Shown here one piece after another: positions 9,742 to 14,197 of a stretch of DNA of 64,000 nt. A model generated the notes under the pieces. That model had not been told where the DNA came from. It saw only the letters and a list, made by a program, of their open reading frames with translations, and ran no database searches. Every line of letters begins with the position of its first letter. The stretch's first letter is position 1. The stretch spans positions 1 through 64,000 of the forward strand of contig LJUJ01000022.1 in assembly GCA_001303785.1 (NCBI GenBank). Direction: 5' to 3'. Origin of the DNA: Caldifarciminota bacterium SM23_42 (lineage in GTDB: Bacteria > Hydrothermota > Tepidihabitantia > SM23-42). The translations under genes and the position numbers were made by a program.

Positions 9742-9814
9742 GGAGTTAGAACGCCTGCCGCTTGTATTACATAACGGTCGGCGTAACAATAAGATGGGGT
9801 CGTAGTTCAGCCTG
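9742..9814 (+). repeat. 73-bp direct repeat, copy 2, running into the intact tRNA-Asp
   Basis: Perfect copy of 9603-9675 at an offset of 139 bp. Its last 19 nt are the true 5' end of tRNA-Asp. The 66 bp between copies also holds an 11-nt piece of the tRNA anticodon arm (CCTGTCACGCA, 9721-9731), so the spacer is itself partly tRNA-derived. Confidence 0.9.
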
Positions 9815-9870
9815 GTTAGAACGCCTGCCTGTCACGCAGGAGGTCGCGAGTTCAACTCTCGTCGACCCCG
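9796..9870 (+). tRNA. tRNA-Asp (anticodon GTC)
   Basis: 75 nt. Acceptor arms GGGGTCG (9796-9802) and CGACCCC (9863-9869) pair perfectly, with discriminator G at 9870. Anticodon stem CCTGC/GCAGG encloses loop CTGTCAC, with GTC at 9831-9833. T arm GCGAG-TTCAACT-CTCGT. CCA is not encoded. It lies about 230 nt downstream of its promoter, behind two tRNA-derived repeats. All parts of the cloverleaf are intact, so it should be functional. Confidence 0.97.
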
Positions 9871-9947
9871 CTTTCCTAATGGAAAATGATTACAGTGATA
9901 AAAACATTAGATTACAGAGATGCCGTAAAATTGGGAATAACAAAGAC

Positions 9948-10316
9948 ATGAGAATTACTGTCATACTCTCTTTTATCGTATTAATGCTAACGACCTGTTC
10001 ACCGGAAAACATTGGCGCTATCGGCACACCGGTACTTGTTTCGCCTATTAATGGTTCGACTATAACCCAAAACCCGCCGACTCTAACATGGCAGGGTGTC
10101 GCGACCGCTTTGGCATACGATCTGATGCTCGCGGATGATTCTTCGTTTGACTATTCGGGGATTGTAATTGATATCCAATGCCATACAGGCACAGAATATA
10201 CACCAACAAATACACTAGGTGCTGGAACGTATTTCTGGAGGGTACGTGCCCTGGAAGGCGGCTGAGGCGGCGCAGTCGGGGATTGGTCTGATCCCTTCAG
10301 TTTTGTCGTCCCCTAG
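9948..10316 (+). pseudogene. Small lipoprotein with Ig/FN3-like domain, in-frame TGA near the end
   Basis: Starts at ATG 9948 with a lipoprotein-like signal (MRITVILSFIVLMLTTCSP; Cys at about 17), followed by one beta-sandwich domain of the kind that begins TPVLVSPINGSTI and ends AGTYFWRVRALEG. A TGA at 10263-10265 interrupts the last strand. The same frame continues for 16 codons (GGAVGDWSDPFSFVVP) to TAG at 10314, which is exactly how such domains usually end. The TGA sits in a run of GGC codons and could be a single change from GGA. A longer frame reaching back through the tRNA is spurious. Confidence 0.65.
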
Positions 10317-11938: not shown

Positions 11939-13117
11939 TCAATTCAATACTATCGAGATTAACAACACCAAGGTGAAGATGATTATTGTCGGCGTAAGAA
12001 GCAGTTTCAGAAAATCCCTCATCGAAACGTTGAAGTATTCTAGTGAAACGCCAACGCACGGATGTACCGGGGAGATCACATAGCCAAAAAATATGCTCGT
12101 GTAAATCAAAGCAAATATGACTGGCGTAATTGGACCGAAGGTCAGATAAACCGGGAATATGATTGACGAAGGCAGTAAGACTCTTCCTGTGGCGATGCCC
12201 AAGATGAAACCCGAAACAACACACAGCGTCGCCGGTGACAGCGGAATAGAAGCAATCAAAGTTGCGGCGTTGGATGCTTTGAAAATATTCAAAAAAATGA
12301 ACATCCCGATAATGATGAAAGTAAAATTCCATGGTTTCATCTTACGAGCAATAACCAAGAGATCCAGCTTAACTTTGCTCATCAGACAGGAAAGAAGAAG
12401 AGCCGTGCTCACGCCGATGACCGTAGCCAATTCTTTGATCGGCAGTGTGAAGAACGTCTTAAGTGAGAAATCGAGCACCGGCGCGATCAAGACGATGCAG
12501 AACGGTAGGAGTAGCCCTTTGAGCGAGAACGGCTTCTGGTACTCTATATCGCCTTCAATCTTTCTCACCAAATAAACGTAGCCCAACAAAAGGGCGAAGA
12601 AAAAGGTTGGCAATAGATACAACATTGCAGAGTAGACATTGACGTCGACAATCTTTGCCGATGCAATGAGGGCCGAGCTCAGCGGGTAGATGAGAACAAA
12701 GAGGTGCCGGAACCAGTCGTTTATCGCCACCTTGAGATCACTAGCAACGCCCGCACCACCTTTCTCAAGAATCGGCGCCGAAAGCAAAGCACCGCCCGGC
12801 ATCGGCAATAATCCCATGATGGCCGGCGAGAAAGCCATTAGACCCCTTTTCCCAATACGTAAGTTGTTCACCAAATCATCCATCTGGCCACTCTCTTTCA
12901 TGGTGCCGCCGATCATCGGTATCACACCCATGGCCAAGGCTAACAGCAGAACCGAAACATCCGTCACCGTATACAAAATTCTTTCTAGGATTTGATATGG
13001 TAGCAGTGTAAACAGTCCTAAGATGACTGCACCACAAAAAAGTGCCAAGGGCAAGTTACGGCGCGCCACCAGCAGAATTGCGGCCAGAGAAATGATAAAA
13101 CCCAACCAGGTTAGCAT
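11939..13117 (-). CDS. DUF401-family membrane permease
   Basis: 392 residues, about ten to eleven hydrophobic helices, no signal peptide. The segments GVIPMIGGTMKESGQMDDLV, GLLPMPGGALLSAP and YVISPVHPCVG are the hallmark of the DUF401 family, relatives of the ion transporter superfamily that includes gluconate and citrate permeases. The substrate is not known. It follows the Asd-like gene by 56 bp and probably shares its promoter, so the two may act on related metabolites. No clear Shine-Dalgarno before the ATG. Confidence 0.85.
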   Translation of the reverse strand: MLTWLGFIISLAAILLVARRNLPLALFCGAVILGLFTLLPYQILERILYTVTDVSVLLLALAMGVIPMIGGTMKESGQMDDLVNNLRIGKRGLMAFSPAIMGLLPMPGGALLSAPILEKGGAGVASDLKVAINDWFRHLFVLIYPLSSALIASAKIVDVNVYSAMLYLLPTFFFALLLGYVYLVRKIEGDIEYQKPFSLKGLLLPFCIVLIAPVLDFSLKTFFTLPIKELATVIGVSTALLLSCLMSKVKLDLLVIARKMKPWNFTFIIIGMFIFLNIFKASNAATLIASIPLSPATLCVVSGFILGIATGRVLLPSSIIFPVYLTFGPITPVIFALIYTSIFFGYVISPVHPCVGVSLEYFNVSMRDFLKLLLTPTIIIFTLVLLISIVLN

Positions 13118-13173: not shown

Positions 13174-14163
13174 CTACACCAGTTCTGCAATCTGTACTGC
13201 ATTCAGCGCTGAACCCTTACGAAGGTTATCGGCAACGATCCACATCGCTAAGCCGTTTTGGGCCGTAATGTCTTGTCTAATCCGGCCAACGAAGACCTCG
13301 TCTTTGCCCACAGCATTTTCTAACGTCGGGTATTCTTCATCATGGCTCGCGAGTATTACTCCGGACGCATTCTTAAGAATCTTTTTAGCCTCGGCGGCCG
13401 AGACTGCTTCGACAAAATCTACACTCAGTGCGATGCTGTTACCGCGCTTCACCGGAACCCAAACACATGTTGCCGACACTCCAATGTCATTTTGGCCGAG
13501 AATATCAGGTATCTCCTTCGCCAGGATAGTCTCTTCTTCGGTGCTGCCTTTTTCCATGAAGTCACCTACCTGTGGTATAACATTGTCTCCAATCGTGTAG
13601 GGAAAAACGCTATCTTCAGTCTTCTCAACTGCCATATCCAAAGCAAGGAACTCATATTCATATTCCAACTCATCGAGCGCGTCGTTTCCAAAACAGGAAA
13701 CCGCAGCCAACGCAGTGAAACGCAGATGCTTCAGCGCATGCTTCTTGTGCAGCGGGTAGAGTGCGGTCAGTAATTGTATGGTGATCGGATTTGGATTAGC
13801 AATCACCCCCTTGTGTTCCCCCACGCTGTCGCCGTTGACTTCAGGAATGACATGTAGCACATCATGGGCAAAGCTGAAGGCACCCGAACAATCAATGACA
13901 AGCGCCCTTTTCTTGAATTTCGGAACCAACGCACGGGCCCGCACCTTATCCAAGCAACAAAAGACCAATTCGACTTTGTCCCGGAATGTGCTGTAGTCAG
14001 AAAGCAAATCGATTTGCTTATCCTTGTAGATAATTTTGTCTGTCCTCTTATCATTACCGGCAAGGAAATATACTTCTTCGGTCGGAAAGTTACGCTGCTC
14101 CAGTATGCTTACGAGTTCCCGACCAATCAGACCATCGGCACCCAAAACTGCAACGTTTTTCAT
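13174..14163 (-). CDS. Aspartate-semialdehyde dehydrogenase paralogue lacking catalytic residues
   Basis: 329 residues, full-length ASADH fold with the NADP-binding GADGLIGRELV at the N-terminus and a dimerisation/catalytic domain. The active site is gone: the catalytic-Cys motif NPNCSTIQ is NPNPITIQ; the segment that is STYQAVSGAG in active enzymes reads FTALAAVSCFG, losing the Gln; and the CVRVPVxxGH motif reads CVWVPVKRGN, losing both Arg and His. All four catalytic positions are replaced while the frame and length are intact, as in the USG-1 type paralogues. It should bind a nucleotide but not make aspartate semialdehyde. First gene of a probable two-gene operon with the DUF401 permease. 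Confidence 0.85.
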   Translation of the reverse strand: MKNVAVLGADGLIGRELVSILEQRNFPTEEVYFLAGNDKRTDKIIYKDKQIDLLSDYSTFRDKVELVFCCLDKVRARALVPKFKKRALVIDCSGAFSFAHDVLHVIPEVNGDSVGEHKGVIANPNPITIQLLTALYPLHKKHALKHLRFTALAAVSCFGNDALDELEYEYEFLALDMAVEKTEDSVFPYTIGDNVIPQVGDFMEKGSTEEETILAKEIPDILGQNDIGVSATCVWVPVKRGNSIALSVDFVEAVSAAEAKKILKNASGVILASHDEEYPTLENAVGKDEVFVGRIRQDITAQNGLAMWIVADNLRKGSALNAVQIAELV

Positions 14164-14169
14164 GCCTCA

Positions 14170-14197
14170 ATTATAGGATAAATCACGATTAAGTCAA
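14170..14197 (-). promoter_or_regulatory. Promoter of the Asd-like gene (leaderless)
   Basis: Minus strand TTGACT, 16-nt spacer, consensus TATAAT, then TGAGGC (6 nt) and the ATG at 14163. Confidence 0.85.

Follow-up and report, generated by a model that had tools for sequence, protein, structure and literature searches.

Is an asd gene that has lost most of its active site a decaying relic, an enzyme of another kind or a protein that is kept for a role without catalysis? The genome of Caldifarciminota bacterium SM23_42 raises this question in the first 64,000 positions of contig LJUJ01000022.1 (forward strand; together the window), where a full-length relative of aspartate-semialdehyde dehydrogenase (ASADH) is encoded beside a DUF401 membrane protein (Table 1). 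An earlier note on this DNA had described the gene as a dead, USG-1-type paralogue with an intact frame and a consensus promoter.

Loss of Catalytic Residues in an ASADH Fold

Alignment with about 25 ASADHs, from 24 loci and from the T. thermophilus and S. pneumoniae crystal structures, placed the catalytic columns. Cys135, Arg102, Gln162, Lys243, Arg267 and His274 (E. coli numbering) are replaced by Pro, Ser, Ala, Ile, Trp and Asn, respectively (C126P, R97S, Q153A, K213I, R235W and H242N in the window protein), and only Asn134 and Glu240 of the active site are kept. The protein therefore has neither the catalytic Cys, Gln and His of a functional ASADH nor its substrate and phosphate ligands Arg102, Lys243 and Arg267. 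Alignment and reading frame agree with the replacements of Cys, Gln, Arg and His in an intact frame that were noted before, and add the loss of Arg102 and Lys243. No catalytic Cys or His was recovered elsewhere by alignment with many homologues, and the predicted structure superposes on ASADH (TM 0.94-0.95). In H. influenzae ASADH, single mutants retain very little activity (C136S <0.01%, H277N 1%, R270K 0.1%, R103L 0.07%, K246R 3.3%), and E. coli R267L retains 9.5% (PMC3276109). The equivalents of H. influenzae C136, H277, R270 and R103 are all replaced together in the window protein. Trp235 is present in all eight genomes of the genus, but the His274 position holds N, T, S, G or H and the Arg102 position S, I, N or G.

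Table 1. Features of the asd-DUF401 locus in the window.
Feature	Position	Strand	Remark
Catalytically dead ASADH orthologue, 329 aa	13174..14163	-	Semialdhyde_dh + Semialdhyde_dhC; ATG start, no stops
DUF401 transporter-like membrane protein	11939..13117	-	PF04165, TIGR00529-like; 56 bp downstream of asd; likely co-transcribed
Promoter TTGACT-16-TATAAT	14170..14197	-	11/12 consensus matches; six bases ahead of ATG
Cys, codon 69	13957..13959	-	New invariant of dead clade (Gly/Ser in live); end of Rossmann strand 66-69
Cys, codon 92	13888..13890	-	New invariant of dead clade (Asn in all live orthologues); just past next Rossmann strand 88-91
Pro, codon 126 (CCG)	13786..13788	-	Replaces catalytic Cys (E. 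coli C135); alignment
Ala, codon 153 (GCT)	13705..13707	-	Replaces catalytic Gln (E. coli Q162); alignment
Trp, codon 235 (TGG)	13459..13461	-	Replaces substrate-binding Arg (E. coli R267); alignment
Asn, codon 242 (AAC)	13438..13440	-	Replaces catalytic His (E. coli H274); alignment

Nucleotide binding had been thought to be kept. The GxxGxxG motif is indeed intact in the window protein, but its second Gly is gone in six of the eight genus members. The loop that contacts the NADP 2'-phosphate (residues 34-42) is 23% conserved in the genus versus 82% in live orthologues, and reads AGNDKRTD in the window protein versus ASERSEG in live orthologues, so it no longer fits that of a functional ASADH. 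Judged from these motifs, nucleotide binding is probably absent in most of the genus.

The overall architecture resembles that of active ASADHs (asd_B/PRK14874; PDB 2qz9, 2r00, 2gyy, 2yv3). Both Pfam ASADH domains are matched end to end (128.5 and 65 bits), the protein scores 292.8 bits against NCBIfam PRK14874 (cutoff 223), and the C-terminal segment DNLRKG-ALNAVQIAE is present. An AF2 model (mean pLDDT 93.5, pTM 0.92) had as its input the window protein aligned to 29 relatives; since this alignment leans on live relatives, the model is a predicted structure that indicates compatibility with the ASADH fold. Foldseek against the PDB gave TM values of 0.90-0.95 to ASADHs, with Vibrio cholerae ASADH2 as best match (0.94-0.95). 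The protein is thus predicted to keep the two-domain ASADH fold. Elsewhere in the window, a tRNA-Asp (GTC) at 9796-9871 overlaps a 167-aa ORF (9762-10265), whose first part is therefore not protein-coding.

A Sole Orthologue, Not a USG-1 Paralogue

The window genome is 97% complete and its single PF02774 match is the gene at 13174-14163; no second canonical asd was found in it with PF02774, PF01118 or an active WOR-3 Asd as query. In a survey of the family, 22 of 23 genomes contained Asd, apparently in single copy; additional hits stem from genes that are cut by a contig end or a break, and in one fragmented genome two contigs each carry a similar gene. The gene order M23 peptidase, CapA, in some genomes a third gene, asd and DUF401 is common to the window genus and to sister genera with an active Asd. 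Being single-copy and at the same locus as the active asd of these genera, the dead gene is an orthologue that changed in place, which contradicts its earlier description as a paralogue.

All eight genomes of this genus of uncultured WOR-3 bacteria, each from a different species, carry a dead Asd as their only copy, and these proteins form one clade (support 100/100) on a long stem (0.48). The catalytic columns are intact in all 59 other genomes of the phylum from which Asd was extracted. Sequencing error, which had been named as a possible refutation, can be dismissed because the other seven genomes of the genus, of which four are single-contig, show a loss of the same kind. The Asd of another genus, G007, has Cys replaced by Ser and has lost Asn, Lys, Arg267 and His, and it retains Gln and Arg102. 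G007 and the dead clade may be sister groups, with support of 97/92 in one tree and 76/85 for one group in another, so that one loss of catalysis or two both fit. This partly dead gene (L136:7038-8201; C to S, H to D, R to C) contains a run of N that masks its C-terminus and the adjoining gene. G007 was considered as a case of DUF401 loss, but this was withdrawn, because the N run hides both the last part of asd and the sequence after it.

The nearest parallel to the dead WOR-3 Asd is USG-1 of Proteobacteria. Members such as E. coli Usg (PRK08040) and the P. aeruginosa protein 2hjs (PRK05671) likewise combine replaced catalytic residues with an ASADH fold and an intact frame. E. coli Usg has changes of its own (C to S, Q to I, R102 to A, R267 to Q, N to D) and, unlike the window protein, keeps the His. 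USG-1 belongs to the pdxB-usg-truA operon and is a paralogue that coexists with an active asd, whereas the window asd has no active asd beside it. The window protein is 51% identical to live WOR-3 Asd versus 32% to Usg, and it falls below the cutoffs of both USG-1 models (PRK08040, 170.9 versus 273 bits; PRK05671, 200 versus 284 bits). A tree test rejected the grouping of the window clade with E. coli Usg (AU p 5.9e-5). The dead WOR-3 Asd is therefore an independent case without a duplicate, and the USG-1 label was mistaken: USG-1 is also dead, but is a separate proteobacterial lineage.

Loss of the Aspartate Pathway

The metabolic setting also differs from that of an active ASADH. Family searches in draft and single-contig genomes, on which the absences given here rest, detected DapB and threonine synthase (ThrC) in none of the eight genus genomes, including the window genome. 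Full-length aspartate kinase (LysC) was likewise found in none of the eight, where only ACT-domain or kinase fragments occur. All three are common in live genera. DapB and LysC were also not found by family searches in G007. The DapA-like protein of the genus, read in four genomes, is without the canonical threonine and tyrosine positions of the DapA that is encoded next to DapB in live genera. LysA-like matches below the cutoff occur in three of the eight genus members and none in the window genome.

Homoserine dehydrogenase, in contrast, is encoded in all eight genomes. At the four genus loci read, its gene shares an operon with those for homoserine kinase, the DapA-like protein, an aldehyde dehydrogenase and a sodium-dependent (SNF) transporter. 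With neither aspartate kinase nor threonine synthase detected in the genus, this operon suggests homoserine uptake or catabolism. The same operon (L138:2568-11076, on contig C6 of the window organism's own genome; L139, L140 and L142) also contains a cyclase and, in most cases, an outer-membrane-like protein. Loss of the cell wall was considered as a cause of the pathway loss and rejected, as the genus keeps Mur ligases and MurE (L217, contig C24 of the own genome) has the DAP-type DNPR motif. Since peptidoglycan genes are kept although the searches recovered neither LysC nor DapB nor a canonical DapA, DAP or a substitute would come from outside or be made by an unrecognised route.

Selection on the Dead Gene

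The earlier note held that the gene is not a fresh pseudogene, and the substitution pattern bears this out. No internal stops occur in the dead asd of the eight genus genomes, whereas neutral evolution at 0.3 substitutions per site would produce about 7. Nei-Gojobori dN/dS for three pairs was 0.150, 0.155 and 0.092 (binomial P <= 5e-15), with dS near saturation in two of the three. These ratios are close to those of live asd pairs (0.11-0.21) and of the neighbouring genes, and far from 1. Mean identity within the genus is 59% for dead Asd versus 76.9% for DUF401, compared with 70% versus 72% in live genera. The dead Asd thus diverges faster than DUF401, as expected for constraint that is relaxed but not gone.

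The constraint has also shifted along the protein. Beyond a permutation limit, the dead orthologues surpass the live ones in the conservation of stretches within residues 165-177 and 280-293, and they fall significantly below them in the NADP loop (30-41). The C-terminal segment 303-329 is still 88% conserved in the dead clade. Eight residues (C69, V74, C92, E209, W235, R240, E282 and S318) do not vary within the dead clade and are not found at the corresponding sites of the live orthologues compared. C69 and C92 stand where two successive Rossmann strands end and, by analogy with ASADH, would adjoin the old cofactor cleft.

Promoter and the DUF401 Neighbour

The consensus promoter that had been noted is confirmed, and a near-identical one stands at the same distance from all eight dead genes, the live genes examined and the G007 gene. 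Its -10 box ends six bases from the start codon in the window and in 13 other genomes, that is, in all orthologues examined. This spacing implies that the asd mRNA may be leaderless. The promoter probably also drives DUF401, and therefore its conservation cannot be attributed solely to asd.

The DUF401 neighbour matches its Pfam family over the full length (residues 9-390, 112.9 bits, gathering score 24) but falls below the cutoff of TIGR00529 (AF0261). No relative of solved structure was found by sequence, and a search for published work on ASADH pseudoenzymes, on the function of DUF401 or on lysine biosynthesis in WOR-3 gave nothing useful. DUF401 adjoins the dead asd in all eight genus members. 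Most live genera of the family also have it next to their asd, and it was not seen there in the sister family of the order. The pairing is therefore older than the loss of catalysis and alone is no pointer to a new role. A regulatory or binding function, as suggested in the earlier note, is nevertheless the leading idea.

A Probable Role Without Catalysis

That the window gene encodes a retained, selected protein that is not an ASADH is highly probable, and exaptation of the asd orthologue is well supported. We put the probability at roughly 55% that, once the pathway had been lost, it was exapted for binding or as a scaffold without catalysis, most likely as a partner of the adjacent DUF401 transporter. 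The starting point would be the vertically inherited, single-copy asd of the lineage. The trunk of the aspartate family (LysC, DapA, DapB, ThrC) would have been lost in the genus before or along with ASADH chemistry. Chemistry and NADP-binding determinants would then have gone while the folded protein was kept for a second, catalysis-free role. In this role the protein may bind another protein or a small ligand, and most likely would serve the probably co-transcribed transporter as a sensor subunit or a cytosolic partner. The acting parts could be the retained C-terminal segment, the newly constrained stretches 165-177 and 280-293 and a reshaped pocket (W235, R240, C69/C92). We infer DUF401 as the partner; it is the natural candidate as it is adjacent in all eight genomes, probably in one transcription unit, and stays well conserved after the pathway loss. 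Linkage and promoter are, however, older than the loss, and their persistence could be inertia. The full version, in which asd was converted in place, without duplication, into a non-catalytic DUF401 subunit or sensor with a W235/R240 pocket and a C69/C92 pair after pathway loss, is accordingly offered as tentative.

The chief rival is an enzyme with a new active site, for example thiols C69/C92 with E209, W235 and R240, that catalyzes another reaction. By sequence position the new invariants fall at the old cofactor and substrate cleft, including the two strand-end cysteines, and W235 and R240 are in and just past the old substrate-binding strand. We nevertheless regard a new enzyme as rather unlikely, because the genus shows free variation at the former His, Arg102 and Asn positions, the NADP loop has dropped to 23% conservation and no operon partner points to a substrate. 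Continued ASADH activity through other residues is extremely unlikely; the PRK14874 score above cutoff would fit it, but nucleophile, general base and carboxylate and phosphate ligands are gone with inconsistent replacements, LysC, the maker of its substrate, was not found, and the published single mutants are already nearly inactive.

If asd were an unneeded, slowly decaying relic, its frame might survive between the shared promoter and DUF401 for reasons of polarity or translation. The relaxed rate (59% versus 77% identity) and the lost catalytic columns agree with this. Such a relic is still improbable given the absence of stops and the stretches that are more conserved than in live enzymes, and dN/dS of 0.09-0.155 is too low for selection against stops alone. 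Alternatively, a non-catalytic moonlighting role of the active enzyme with a partner other than DUF401 may have been retained, e.g., in cell-envelope assembly of the M23/CapA/asd locus. The synteny of M23, CapA, asd and DUF401 across genera and the retention of the C-terminal and several C-domain segments would suit this, but there is no independent link, and the proximity of CapA and M23 is likewise inherited, so we consider it quite improbable. A non-catalytic binding or scaffold role, most likely with DUF401, remains our preferred reading.

Implications

The dead WOR-3 Asd is an ASADH-fold pseudoenzyme that is unusual as the sole orthologue. Pseudoenzymes are usually explained by a duplication after which one copy loses catalysis, whereas here the only orthologue lost it genus-wide. 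As the PRK14874 cutoff is passed, automatic annotation calls these genomes asd-positive, probably wrongly. The rest of the pathway is lost, yet the dead Asd is under purifying selection, which points to a binding or structural role separated from the chemistry. With nine dead and dozens of live orthologues, the family provides a natural mutant series for finding that role, and it may offer a handle on DUF401 transporters.
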